Shown here: positions 20,698 through 24,478 of the stretch, one piece after another
Numbering within the stretch: the first letter of the stretch is position 1
Layout of the letters: the number at the start of each line of letters is the position of its first letter
DNA from: Thermoplasmatales archaeon
GTDB lineage: Archaea > Thermoplasmatota > Penumbrarchaeia > Penumbrarchaeales > Penumbrarchaeaceae
Assembly: GCA_030595715.1 (NCBI GenBank)
Contig: JAUVCN010000016.1
Location: 1-36,743 of the forward strand
DNA length: 36,743 nucleotides
Direction of reading: 5' to 3'
Made by a program: the position numbers and the translations under genes
Notes under the pieces: generated by a model
The model's input: only the letters and a program-made list of their open reading frames with translations
Told to the model about the DNA's origin: nothing
The model's database searches: none

Positions 20698-20722
20698 ATT
20701 GATCGAGTAGGAGGTTATGACG

Positions 20723-21442
20723 ATGCAGCCGGGAAATATGGCATACGACAGAGCGATAACCGTTTTCTCTCCAGATGGCAGACTGTTCCAGGTGGAATAT
20801 GCGAGGGAGGCAGTGAAAAGGGGGACCACCACGGTAGGTTTGAAGTTCAAAGACGGAGCGATCCTGATCATAGACAAGAGGATTTCATCCCCTCTCATCG
20901 AACCGTCCTCCATTGAGAAGATATTCAAGATCGATGATCTGATCGGCTGCGCCACATCAGGGCTTGTGGCAGATGCAAGGGTCCTGGTCGATAGGGCCCG
21001 TGTGGAATCCCAGATCAACAAGATCACTTACAGCGAGAAGATCCCGGTGGATGTCCTTGTGAAGAAGATCTGCGACTTCAAACAGAACTACACCCAGTAC
21101 GGTGGAGTGAGGCCCTTCGGGACCGCTCTTCTGATCGCGGGTATTGATGAAAAGGGCGTCCATCTCTACGAAACCGATCCATCCGGTGCAATGATGTCCT
21201 ACAAGGCGGGATCCATAGGCTCAGGCCGTTCAGTTGTCATGGAGATCTTCGAGGACAAATACAAGGAGAACATGGGCCAGGACCAGGCGATCAAGTTGGG
21301 CCTCGAAGCCGTACTTGGTGCCGCTGATGAAGCAAGCTTGAACACCTTCGCTGTGGAGATCGGTCTCGTGAGCAAGAAGGAATCGTTCAAGAAGATGGAA
21401 CAAGAGAAGGTTGCCAAGTTTGTGAAAGAACTTAACAAATGA
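20723..21442 (+). CDS. psmA: Proteasome alpha subunit
   Basis: 239 aa, forming the outer gate rings of the 20S proteasome. The N-terminus [20 protein letters not shown] followed by [11 protein letters not shown] is the proteasome alpha signature and closely resembles the Thermoplasma protein as I recall it. The conserved T-S-G-L-V-A-D-A-R and Y-G-G-V-R-P-F-G segments are present. The start at 20723 has GGAGG eight nt upstream; the ATG two codons earlier (20717) is too close to it. It shares the ATGA junction region with SBDS. The catalytic beta subunit is not in the window. Confidence 0.97.
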
Positions 21443-21456
21443 TAGGAGTTATTGAT

Positions 21457-22155
21457 ATGGTATCCCTGGACGATGCGGTCATTGCTAGACTAGATCGGGA
21501 TGGGGAGCGGTTCGAGATATATGTCGACCCCGACCTGGCACACGATTTTCGTGAGAAGGAGGATAAGCCAGATATATCGGAGATAATGGCAGTGGAAGAT
21601 ATCTTTCTTGACGCTCACAAGGGTGATCGGGCCCCTTCGGACCTGTTGAACAAGGTGTTCAAGACAACAGACCTTGATGAAATAGTTTCAATGATCCTGG
21701 AAAAGGGAGAGATACAGCTCACAACGGAACAGAGAAAGAGGATGCAGGAAGAAAAGAGGAAGAAGATCGTGGCACTTCTATCAAGGAACTGCATCAACCC
21801 AACCACAAAATCCCCTCACCCTCCCGGCAGGATAGATATGGCCCTCAATGAGGCAAAGTTCAACATAGATCCTTTCAAGAACCCGGAAGCACAGATGACC
21901 GAAGCCCTCAAGGCTCTCCGGCCTGTGATACCTATCAGGATGGAAATGGCCCAGATCGCAGTCAAGACCAGTGCAGGCCACTATGGCAAACTGGTCGGAG
22001 AGGTCAGGGGATTCGGCAAGGTATTGAAAGAGGAGTGGACGAAATCCGGTGAGTGGTTATGTCTTGTCGAGATCCCTGCGGGCCTCCAGATCGAGTTCTT
22101 TGATATGGTAAACTCCAGGACACATGGTGAGGCCGAGACCAAGTTGCTGAATTAG
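21457..22155 (+). CDS. sdo1: Ribosome maturation protein SBDS (Sdo1)
   Basis: 232 aa. With elongation factor 2-like GTPases the family releases aIF6 from nascent 50S subunits. The N-terminus M-V-S-L-D-D-A-V-I-A-R-L is typical, followed by the FYSH domain, a helical middle (D-K-P-D-I-S-E-I-M-A-V-E-D-I-F) with N-P-T-T-K-S-P-H-P-P containing the family hallmark, and a ferredoxin-like C-terminal domain. GGAG eight nt before ATG 21457 fixes the start; the in-frame ATG at 21439 that overlaps the psmA stop is less likely. In many archaea exosome genes follow; here L37ae follows instead. Confidence 0.95.
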   Translation: MVSLDDAVIARLDRDGERFEIYVDPDLAHDFREKEDKPDISEIMAVEDIFLDAHKGDRAPSDLLNKVFKTTDLDEIVSMILEKGEIQLTTEQRKRMQEEKRKKIVALLSRNCINPTTKSPHPPGRIDMALNEAKFNIDPFKNPEAQMTEALKALRPVIPIRMEMAQIAVKTSAGHYGKLVGEVRGFGKVLKEEWTKSGEWLCLVEIPAGLQIEFFDMVNSRTHGEAETKLLN

Positions 22156-22180
22156 TCCTGGCCTGTCAATTTGCGTAACA

Positions 22181-22193
22181 TATATATATAAAA
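22181..22193 (+). promoter_or_regulatory. Strong TATA box between SBDS and L37ae
   Basis: An uninterrupted TATATATATAAAA run gives the L37ae-rpoP-pcc1 group its own promoter. Transcription is expected near 22212-22218, so the leader is ~30-35 nt. Confidence 0.6.
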
Positions 22194-22229
22194 ATCCTAT
22201 GCTAGTGCTCCCCAAGGGTGTTTGACCCC

Positions 22230-22242
22230 GGTCAGGAGGACC
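22230..22242 (+). promoter_or_regulatory. Hairpin presenting the L37ae ribosome-binding site in its loop
   Basis: GGTC (22230-22233) and GACC (22239-22242) can pair around the loop AGGAG, so the GGAGG site (22235-22239) lies across the loop and stem, seven nt before ATG 22247. A 4-bp GGGT/ACCC stem lies just upstream. Such a compact structure could modulate L37ae translation, but short stems arise by chance. Confidence 0.35.
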
Positions 22243-22246
22243 TGAG

Positions 22247-22507
22247 ATGAGTAGAAGAACCAAGAAGGTCGGTAGTTCGGGAAGATTTGGTCCAAGGTAC
22301 GGACTGAGCGTCAAGAAGCAGATACGCTCCATCGATACGAACAAGCACAACAGATACATCTGCCCGAAATGTACCAAGAAGAATGTAAAGAGGGTATCTG
22401 CCGGCATCTGGGAATGCAGGTCCTGTTCCCTGAAGTTCATTGGTGGAGCCTACTCCCCAAAGACCGGGAAGTTCAAGACACTGGAAAATCGTCTAACGAG
22501 GTTGTAA
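22247..22507 (+). CDS. rpl37ae: 50S ribosomal protein L37ae (eL43)
   Basis: 86 aa zinc-ribbon protein of the large ribosomal subunit. Basic N-terminus (S-R-R-T-K-K-V-G) with the family G-R-F-G-P-R-Y-G-L-S-V-K-K segment, then zinc ligands C-P-K-C (~39-42) and C-R-S-C (~57-60), and the F-x-G-G-A-Y motif. Strong GGAGG seven nt before the start. It is followed one base after its stop by rpoP. Confidence 0.95.
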   Translation: MSRRTKKVGSSGRFGPRYGLSVKKQIRSIDTNKHNRYICPKCTKKNVKRVSAGIWECRSCSLKFIGGAYSPKTGKFKTLENRLTRL

Positions 22508-22508
22508 G

Positions 22509-22646
22509 ATGTATCGTTGTGGCAGATGTGGAGAGAAATTGGTGACAGAGTTCAGTCCCATCGGTATTCAGTGCTCCAAATGCGGTTACAAGATTTTCTA
22601 CAAAGAGAGACCCAACAGGAAGAAGGTCGTTCTCTCTATCAAGTAA
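22509..22646 (+). CDS. rpoP: DNA-directed RNA polymerase subunit P (Rpo12)
   Basis: 45 aa zinc-binding RNA polymerase subunit, read directly because it is short. M-Y-R-C-G-R-C-G-E-K carries the first C-x2-C pair and I-Q-C-S-K-C-G-Y-K the second, giving a zinc ribbon; the C-terminal R-P-N-R-K-K-V-V tail is basic. The length matches archaeal Rpo12. It begins one nt after the L37ae stop and ends seven nt before pcc1, the conserved archaeal order. Confidence 0.95.
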   Translation: MYRCGRCGEKLVTEFSPIGIQCSKCGYKIFYKERPNRKKVVLSIK

Positions 22647-22653
22647 GGAGACG

Positions 22654-22902
22654 ATGGCCTTGCAGGCCGTTATTGAACTCTGGGTGGACCTTCCGGACAA
22701 TGTTCGGGACAGCATTTCGAGGGCCATGGAGGTAGAATCCATTTCCGCACCGGAAGGTGGTGTGGTCATTGTCGATTCCGGTAATGTTGATCATTCACCT
22801 TGGTTGAAGATGATATCATCCGATCTATCCACCATCAGGGCCATGTTGAATTCATATACGGGGCTGCTTTCAGCAGCCATGGCAGTATCCCTCGATGAGT
22901 GA
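22654..22902 (+). CDS. pcc1: KEOPS complex subunit Pcc1
   Basis: 82 aa. Pcc1 is the dimerising subunit of KEOPS, which makes t6A37 in tRNA together with Kae1, Bud32 and Cgi121. The sequence has the CTAG/PCC1 pattern: a beta strand, an S-I-S-x-A-M-E-V-E helix, V-V-I-V-D-S-G and a C-terminal helix with I-R-A-M-L-N-S-Y-T-G-L-L, typical of Pcc1. Gene position between rpoP and prefoldin beta is the conserved archaeal location. GGAG lies six nt before the ATG. Confidence 0.9.
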   Translation: MALQAVIELWVDLPDNVRDSISRAMEVESISAPEGGVVIVDSGNVDHSPWLKMISSDLSTIRAMLNSYTGLLSAAMAVSLDE

Positions 22903-22949: not shown

Positions 22950-23294
22950 ATGGCATACCAGTTCCCGAAAGAGTTACAGGAGAAGATATCCAACTTCGAA
23001 CAGCTCAAACAGCAGCTTCAGATACTATTATCCCAGAAGGGTGAGATGGAGGCCAGGAAGAAGGAGATGGACTCCTCGATCGAAGCTCTCGAGAAACAGA
23101 AGGACGGAGAGATCTACAGGAGGATCGGAGATCTTCTGCTGAAGGTATCCGACAAGGATTCCCTTCTGAATGAACTCAAGGAAGATTCCGAGACCCTTGA
23201 AGTGAGGTTGAACTCTTTCAGCTCACAGGAGAAGACCCTCAAGGAGATGTACGAGAAGCTGGGGGCCGAGATCAACGAATCCTTAAAGGGATGA
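22950..23294 (+). CDS. pfdB: Prefoldin beta subunit
   Basis: 114 aa coiled-coil chaperone subunit that passes unfolded proteins to the thermosome. The whole chain is helical with a central turn (G-D-L-L-L-K, about 63-75) typical of prefoldin beta; the N-terminus opens with P-K-E-L-Q-E-K-I-S-N-F-E-Q-L-K-Q-Q-L-Q. ATG 22950 has GGTGGT five nt upstream; in-frame codons back to 22899 overlap pcc1 and are not family-like. A TATA-like CTATATATT at 22908-22916 might give internal initiation. Confidence 0.9.
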   Translation: MAYQFPKELQEKISNFEQLKQQLQILLSQKGEMEARKKEMDSSIEALEKQKDGEIYRRIGDLLLKVSDKDSLLNELKEDSETLEVRLNSFSSQEKTLKEMYEKLGAEINESLKG

Positions 23295-24478
23295 GGATGA
23301 CCTCCAACATCGGCATGAGGCCCGCACTCTCTCAGGTGGGATGGACCTTCGGGCGCGGGTATCTGCCTTTTCCAAAGGACCGTTCCAGGTTATGGAAGAT
23401 AGTATCAGATATAATTGACCGATCGGACGATAACGTGATGGTCCTTGCCCATCATAATGCCGACCTTGATGCGGTTGCAACATCTCTTGTTCTCAAATGG
23501 ACCTTTCCATGGGTGAGATTGGGAGCGTTCAGATCGATCTCACATCCCGGAAAGAAGCTGTTGAACCATTTCAATATCGAAATGGAACTGGACCCTGACC
23601 TTGATGATGTATCATTGGTGATCGTTGTCGATTCCTCATCACCCATTCAGGTAATGGAGAGGGATATCTCCGATTGGCCGGACCTTCATGTGATAGACCA
23701 TCATCCGGACCATTCTCATTGGAACGACAGCGCATATATCGATGATTCCAAGGGAGCCTGCGTCGAGATCGCGCTTCAAATGGCCATGTTGACAGGATCA
23801 CCCTTGACAAATGATATGGCCACGGCATCCCTCGCAGGTATAATCGCAGACACTGGTAAGTTCAGGTTCACCCGTCCCGTGGACCTCGAAGTGTCATCCT
23901 TCCTCCTTGGCGGATCTGATATCTCGATGGAGGATGTTCTCATGATAATCGAAGGTGACGAATACTTCGATGTATCCAAGAAAGTGGCCCAGCTGAAGGC
24001 CATGAAAAGGATACAGTACAGGAAGATCGGAGATCAGGTGATCGCCATTTCCAGGGTGAATTCTTTTGAGGCTGCGGCCTGCAGGGTATTGCTCGTTGCC
24101 GGAGCCGATGTTGCCTTTGTCGCAGCAGAGAAGAAAGATGATCTGAGGGTTTCCTCCAGGGCAAAACCCCATATCCTGAAGATGGGGGTCCATCTGGGCC
24201 ATTTCATGGAAAAGGTCGGCAACATGACGGGTGCCCAGGGCGGTGGCCATGATGGGGCCGCAGGGATCAATGGCAAGGGAAGGGCGGATCGAACGCTTCA
24301 GGTCTGCATGGATGAGATGTCCACCCTCTTGTCAGAGAAGCTGGGTGTGGATATGAAGAAACACTCCAGAAACAGGGGACGCGGAAGAGGTAGGAACGGA
24401 AGTACAGGTTATCAGGAACGTTCGATATCAAATAGAAAAGAGATCATTGAGGATCGGGCTTCCGGGCAGGATAAGTGA
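23291..24478 (+). CDS. DHH/DHHA1-family phosphoesterase
   Basis: 395 aa manganese-dependent phosphoesterase of the RecJ/NrnA superfamily. Metal motifs: H-H-N-A-D-L-D-A (~54-61), V-V-D-S-S near 114, and D-H-H (V-I-D-H-H-P-D-H) near 136-138; the DHHA1 domain ends in the substrate-binding G-G-G-H-D-G-A-A-G motif (~317-325). The tail is basic with R-G-R-G-R repeats, suggesting nucleic-acid binding. The start overlaps the prefoldin stop (ATGA). Related archaeal proteins act on nucleotides or short RNA/DNA; the exact substrate here is unknown. Its 3' end overlaps the convergent riboflavin kinase gene. Confidence 0.88.
   Translation: MRMTSNIGMRPALSQVGWTFGRGYLPFPKDRSRLWKIVSDIIDRSDDNVMVLAHHNADLDAVATSLVLKWTFPWVRLGAFRSISHPGKKLLNHFNIEMELDPDLDDVSLVIVVDSSSPIQVMERDISDWPDLHVIDHHPDHSHWNDSAYIDDSKGACVEIALQMAMLTGSPLTNDMATASLAGIIADTGKFRFTRPVDLEVSSFLLGGSDISMEDVLMIIEGDEYFDVSKKVAQLKAMKRIQYRKIGDQVIAISRVNSFEAAACRVLLVAGADVAFVAAEKKDDLRVSSRAKPHILKMGVHLGHFMEKVGNMTGAQGGGHDGAAGINGKGRADRTLQVCMDEMSTLLSEKLGVDMKKHSRNRGRGRGRNGSTGYQERSISNRKEIIEDRASGQDK

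Follow-up and report, generated by a model that had tools for sequence, protein, structure and literature searches.

Gene order around the emptied slot

In the archaeal locus analysed here, the ribosome assembly gene SBDS is followed directly by the L37ae gene, where relatives carry the exosome genes rrp4, rrp41 and rrp42. Were these genes lost, moved or simply missed, and if lost, what took over their work? The window (the whole stretch of 36,743 nucleotides) is contig C197 of draft genome G000 (3.07 Mb in 197 contigs, completeness 95.6%, contamination 1.85%). Its + strand displayed the order Pop5-like, psmA, SBDS, a 91-nt gap, L37ae, rpoP, pcc1-like, prefoldin beta and a DHH protein (Table 1), and the gap was devoid of any exosome gene (rrp4, rrp41 or rrp42). 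The first-pass annotation had described these flanks as being in the expected order with three exosome genes missing between SBDS and L37ae, a description confirmed by profile matches and by synteny with the sister genus. In G001 and G004, which together with G006 represent this sister genus g2, the order was pop5-psmA-SBDS-rrp4-rrp41-rrp42-L37ae-rpoP-pcc1, i.e. three genes fill exactly the slot of the window. Profile scores in G001 were above cut-off for Rrp41 (326.7 versus 318.7) and below it for Rrp4 (183.5 versus 200) and Rrp42 (240.7 versus 280).

The exosome cluster was also found between SBDS and L37ae in G009, which forms family f2 together with G008 (the window's own family being f1), and in the distant genome G028. 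SBDS and L37ae were adjacent without exosome genes in G002, G003, G005, G007 and G011, and in G010 L37ae and its downstream genes were present with no SBDS found beside them. Since the contig is continuous through the slot, and since this slot is filled in G001 and G004 and empty in five relatives, it does not correspond to an assembly break.

Table 1. Features of the window around the emptied exosome slot
Feature	Positions	Strand	Evidence
Pop5-like ORF	ends 20582	+	PF01900 22.1 bits, just below cut-off 23
psmA, proteasome alpha subunit (upstream flank)	20717-21442	+	TIGR03633 343 bits, cut-off 287
SBDS ribosome assembly factor (left edge of missing cluster)	21439-22155	+	TIGR00291 281.6 bits, cut-off 126.6
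91-nt spacer, now putative L37ae promoter and leader	22156-22246	+	synteny with G001 and G004; spacer alignment
TATA-like box ATATATATATAAAA	about 22180-22193	+	54-67 nt upstream of the L37ae ATG; aligned with TATAAATAA
L37ae ribosomal protein (right edge)	22247-22507	+	TIGR00280 112.6 bits, cut-off 95.8
rpoP, RNA polymerase subunit P	22509-22646	+	NF001605 43.1 bits, below cut-off 63; PF03604 27.9 bits, cut-off 24
pcc1-like KEOPS subunit	22654-22902	+	NF011470 20.4 bits, below cut-off 27; no Pfam match; mainly position
Prefoldin beta subunit	22950-23294	+	TIGR02338 85.3 bits, cut-off 73
DHH protein	23291-24478	+	

The 91-nt gap had initially been read as carrying a fresh TATA box, the new promoter marking the scar of the missing genes. 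Gap and TATA-like box are indeed there. The freshness is not, as the spacer alignment placed the window's ATATATATATAAAA opposite TATAAATAA, which is present inside the rrp42-L37ae spacer of exosome-bearing G001, G004 and G006 and which also precedes L37ae in G002, G003, G005 and G007. A fresh promoter as scar was hence discarded. The box occupies an ancestral position rather than marking a deletion, its promoter function being predicted, and the deletion took out rrp4-rrp41-rrp42 while leaving this pre-existing putative L37ae promoter in place.

Exosome genes in the rest of the genome

Four matches to PF01138 (RNase PH family) were recorded in G000: two came from a PNPase on contig C61, and the others from an RNase PH (C177) and a partial PNPase (C57), one each. 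No Rrp41 was detected in the genome (the highest TIGR02065 score was 95 bits, cut-off 319, with only PNPase and RNase PH matching), nor was any Rrp42, for which PF01138 and TIGR02065 returned the same two kinds of protein. Likewise, Rrp4 and Csl4 gave only weak matches in G000, both inside the PNPase tail (24.6 and 23.4 bits, respectively). DnaG, on the other hand, was kept (NF003108, 528 bits, cut-off 300). The genome-wide search for Rrp4, Rrp41, Rrp42, Csl4 and DnaG that had been proposed from the window thus found the last and none of the first four. Of the two outcomes then envisaged, loss was upheld and relocation was not, given that the four proteins were missing from a 95.6%-complete genome; displacement of the genes to another part of G000 was ruled out by these same searches. 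The exosome of G000 is lost, not relocated.

A bacterial-type PNPase

Instead, G000 encodes an intact bacterial-type PNPase of 742 residues on C61 (L005:7446-9674), a candidate replacement that the first-pass annotation had not foreseen. TIGR03591 matched it over its whole length (residues 10-711, 827 bits, cut-off 525). PF01138 was found in two stretches, followed by a KH domain (PF00013, 576-633) and an S1 domain (PF00575, 640-708); the region between the PH domains, where an all-helical linker is expected in a PNPase, was present and aligned, without any Pfam linker model at E ≤ 0.001. The best matches among solved structures were PNPases. In a comparison with the E. coli enzyme, 17 of 19 active-site positions agreed, among them every one of the 14 from R93 on, and R93, R97, R398, R399, H403, the SSS motif, D486, D492 and K494 (E. 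coli numbering) were conserved. The two differences concern F78, replaced by L, and R79, replaced by K, the latter residue also occurring in Bacillus and in two Patescibacteria rows.

The neighbourhood of the gene is shared with relatives. A form III RuBisCO gene (L005:5374-6669, TIGR03326 554 bits, cut-off 497) is separated from pnp by a single ORF of 167 aa in G000, and an ABC transporter gene follows pnp on C61. In G002 and G003, pnp was likewise flanked by a form III RuBisCO gene (529 and 549 bits, same cut-off) and a LolD-like ABC gene. Genomes of g2 displayed different pnp neighbours from those in G000, G002 and G003, and in G010 pnp occurred on one contig with archaeal-type L13 and S9. 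GC content was 0.481 for C61 versus 0.475 for the window. As to the partial PNPase of C57, this contig (L006) matched one from G006 at 99.8% identity along 6213 nt and was judged, on that ground, to be a contaminant from a sister-genus archaeon, so that a second PNPase of G000 was dismissed.

Distribution of PNPase and exosome

The class was represented by 12 genomes and the phylum (Thermoplasmatota) by 389, of which 203 were classed as good; all are drafts, many with hundreds of contigs. Within the class, DnaG was universal (12/12), PNPase exceeded the cut-off in nine genomes and Rrp41 in five. Rrp4 matches of at least 144 bits were restricted to these five exosome-bearing genomes, and Csl4 was above cut-off in three of the 12, all of them among the five. 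Every combination was encountered: PNPase without exosome in six genomes (G000, G002, G003, G007, G010 and G011), both in three (G001, G004 and G006), and exosome without PNPase in G008 (80% complete) and G009 (54% complete), where PNPase was lost, never gained or missed. Neither was detected in G005, which is 69% complete.

At the phylum level, PNPase was found in 11 of the 389 genomes, always above cut-off, namely the nine of the class plus G028 and G320, both of which kept Rrp41. Nearly all sampled relatives of G000 carry the exosome: Rrp41 was detected at E ≤ 1e-50 in 362 of 389 genomes (299 above the curated cut-off) and in 196 of the 203 good ones. Of the seven good genomes lacking it, four have PNPase (G000, G002, G003 and G010) and three are without it (G073, G146 and G228); other members of the genera of G073 and G146 (g60 and g63) carry Rrp41. 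Rrp41 was thus missing from four of six good genomes with PNPase versus three of 197 without (Fisher p 7e-6, a value that overstates independence since the relatives are few and clustered). PNPases were also noticed in assemblies that bear the label Methanomassiliicoccales (UBA147 among them) or Euryarchaeota S2_100 (L058, L063, L064 and L066).

Origin of the archaeal PNPases

When genome contigs were scanned for PNPase loci, the best 80 loci comprised 12 archaeal and 68 bacterial ones. The archaeal loci among them (59-72% identity) belonged to Thermoplasmatota, Methanomassiliicoccales and one assembly labelled 'Euryarchaeota'; archaeal copies overall were 57-72% identical to the C61 PNPase. 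The bacterial loci were 44-51% identical and were assigned to Patescibacteria groups (56), to 'bacterium' only (11) and to Planctomycetota (1). The last one (L082) fell inside the Patescibacteria rows of the tree described below; it is perhaps mis-binned or represents another transfer.

A tree of 57 rows was built from 13 archaeal sequences, 33 of the 68 bacterial loci and 11 of 42 plasmid-collection records, the bacterial sample being chosen by similarity. All 13 archaeal PNPases formed one clade (100/100) inside Patescibacteria-type rows, and a Patescibacteria-type clade excluding the archaea was rejected (AU p 0.0003). Together, these sequence relationships indicate that pnp was apparently acquired once from a Patescibacteria-like donor. 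The stem of the archaeal clade is long (0.48 changes per column). Patescibacteria often live attached to other cells.

Number of losses

Marker trees placed the exosome-only family f2 (G008 and G009) as sister to f1, with G010 and G011 outside. A single clade of all exosome-less genomes was rejected with eleven markers not including DnaG (AU p 2e-8), after removal of the long-branched G010 (AU p 2e-6) and after addition of DnaG and PNPase (AU p 5e-20). DnaG was left out of the first set because a passage of PMC4227792 calls it unsuitable as a phylogenetic marker. As one shared loss is rejected, the exosome was lost at least two times, provided that f2 never regained it. Within f1, two losses were favoured (83/87) and one was not rejected (AU p 0.30, 0.11 and 0.25).

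The Rrp41 of g2 deserves separate mention. In a tree of 33 sequences and 239 columns, with nine of 30 inner branches open, it occupied a very long branch (1.47), far longer than those of other Rrp41 rows, and grouped with f2 Rrp41 in none of 200 bootstrap trees. The aligned acidic Rrp41 residues (ED...D) were kept in the three g2 genomes (the G001 protein being L039:5134-5946). Either fast evolution under relaxed constraint beside PNPase or a foreign origin may account for this branch, and the location of the cluster in the shared SBDS-L37ae slot favours the former.

Other nucleases and DnaG

RNase R or RNase J had been put forward as possible compensation. RNase J did not bear this out: TIGR00649 was above cut-off in none of the 12 class genomes (divergent homologues below cut-off could escape), a search in which the Haloferax and Methanocaldococcus controls matched, and RNase J was set aside as a replacement. 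RNase R fared better in part, an RNB (RNase R-like) protein being present in four of the 12 (G000, G003, G005 and G007), confined to the window's genus and g4; with just these four, it was rejected as a general replacement. The RNB domain of G000 scored 314 bits, and the RNase R model gave 378 and 370 bits in the two proteins scanned versus a cut-off of 598. These divergent RNase R-like proteins of about 900 aa are encoded at L267:406-3117 (G000, contig C138) and L266:373-3072 (G005).

A bacterial-type RNase PH was encountered in G000 (L007:12623-13351 on C177, TIGR01966 313 bits) and in G010 (338 bits), while G005 holds part of one. A third RNase PH-family gene occurs in several further genomes of the phylum. 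Part of the RNA decay could fall to RNase PH or to the RNase R-like protein. In exosome-less G002 and G011, however, neither an RNB protein nor an RNase PH-family gene besides PNPase was found. Among the surveyed nucleases, PNPase was the only one common to all six class genomes that lack the exosome, leaving aside G005 (69% complete).

DnaG was also inspected for traces of exosome loss. Identity of its C-terminal domain to that of exosome-bearing G008 was 59% in G000 and 58% in G002, close to the value for exosome-bearing G004 (59%), so that in these two exosome-less genomes erosion of this domain does not mark the loss. Lower values were recorded for G010 (L247, 41%) and G011 (L239, 36%), which may reflect either erosion or the greater distance of these genomes.

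Interpretation

Our preferred reading, to which we assign a probability of roughly 0.8, is that the exosome was deleted and its function most likely taken over by a PNPase acquired once from a Patescibacteria-like donor, with at least two losses thereafter. An ancestor would have gained pnp and both machines would have coexisted, as they still do in g2, G028 and G320, before the exosome disappeared on at least two occasions. In G000, the rrp4-rrp41-rrp42 block would have been deleted from between SBDS and the existing L37ae promoter. PNPase would most likely degrade RNA phosphorolytically in the 3'-5' direction and might also add 3' tails, its single chain offering two RNase PH domains in place of Rrp42 and Rrp41 and a KH-S1 tail that substitutes for the Rrp4/Csl4 cap. 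The absences, the intact pnp with conserved active-site residues, the archaeal clade within Patescibacteria and the repeated loss (barring a regain) come directly from the computations; that PNPase is expressed and active, and is the reason why the exosome became dispensable, we infer from sequence.

Other explanations concern the assembly itself. Exosome genes missed by a draft of 197 contigs and 95.6% completeness, or relocated, are hardly credible: the slot was assembled and is empty within a single contig, it is empty in five other assemblies as well, and Rrp4, Rrp41, Rrp42 and Csl4 are all missing even though in G004 and G006 Csl4 and the cluster are found on different contigs. Rrp41 was moreover absent from five of the six class genomes with completeness of at least 90%. 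Bacterial contamination as the source of the C61 PNPase might be suspected from passages of PMC5416783 and PMC8836086 describing PNPase as absent from archaea, and from the one foreign contig (C57) that G000 does hold. We regard it as extremely improbable, because the complete pnp shares C61 with a form III RuBisCO at the GC content of the genome, the same RuBisCO and LolD-like ABC neighbours recur in G002 and G003, and the pnp contig of G010 bears archaeal-type L13 and S9. In addition, the archaeal copies are 57-72% identical to the C61 protein and form one clade, PNPase branching within f1 resembles the marker tree, and C57, the sole foreign contig found, comes from a sister archaeon.

The remaining alternatives accept the absences and differ as to their meaning. 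PNPase might be a bystander, the exosome having been replaced by RNase PH and an RNase R-like hydrolase. Both enzymes exist in G000, the RNB-domain protein also in G003, G005 and G007 and RNase PH also in G010 (with the G005 fragment), and there is a precedent in that RNase R was once hypothesised, according to a passage of PMC10470531, to be the sole exoribonuclease of Haloferax volcanii. Yet the lack of both in exosome-less G002 and G011, the fact that, of the surveyed nucleases, PNPase alone is present in all six genomes, and RNase R scores under cut-off make this replacement unlikely. Alternatively, g2 might have lost the exosome and regained it from elsewhere, in which case it would be no surviving intermediate and fewer losses would be needed. 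The long g2 Rrp41 branch, apart from f2, is what such a history would produce, but its placement is unsure given the branch length, the short alignment and the open inner branches, and the slot that holds the g2 cluster also holds that of f2 member G009 and of distant G028. Furthermore, f2 separates f1 from G010 and G011, so that the count would drop below two losses only with a regain in f2 as well. We consider a regain in g2 very unlikely.

Beyond replacement by PNPase as such, we lean towards a broader scenario in which a single Patescibacteria to Thermoplasmatota transfer displaced the exosome at least twice, g2 representing the surviving stage with both machines and a fast-evolving Rrp41, and DnaG being maybe retained as an RNA-binding partner. 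If true, two homologous RNA-decay rings, one bacterial and one archaeal, would have been exchanged in nature. These genomes include living representatives with the exosome alone, with both machines and with PNPase alone, which makes it testable whether the exosome has functions beyond the reach of PNPase and what DnaG does after exosome loss.

Comparison with known systems

The PNPase of G000 resembles bacterial and organellar PNPases (TIGR03591) in its two RNase PH domains, its KH and S1 domains and its conserved active-site residues. It differs from them by its archaeal host genome, which also encodes an archaeal DnaG and a form III RuBisCO, and by L/K at the positions of F78/R79. Patescibacteria PNPases (Magasanikbacteria, Uhrbacteria and Falkowbacteria) were the closest non-archaeal ones among the matches listed (44-51% identity) and enclose the archaeal clade, although they belong to bacterial hosts and the archaeal clade is set off from them by its stem of 0.48. 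The Thermoplasmatota PNPases contradict the stated absence of this enzyme from archaea in PMC5416783 and PMC8836086, as far as the relevant passages go, and the matching open-licence PubMed Central papers, judged mainly from titles and abstract openings, offered no described archaeal PNPase.

With respect to the archaeal exosome (Rrp41-Rrp42-Rrp4/Csl4-DnaG), a passage of PMC5416783 treats PNPase as the equivalent phosphorolytic complex in both structure and function, and DnaG is present in G000, in contrast to Rrp41, Rrp42, Rrp4 and Csl4, which were not found there. A parallel is offered by exosome-less Halobacteria and some methanogens, which, in the passages concerned of PMC4227792 and PMC10470531, likewise lack the exosome core and retain DnaG. 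For those archaea, there are proposals or reports of RNase R, aRNase J or RecJ3/4-aRNase J, whereas G000, with no RNase J above cut-off, carries a PNPase.
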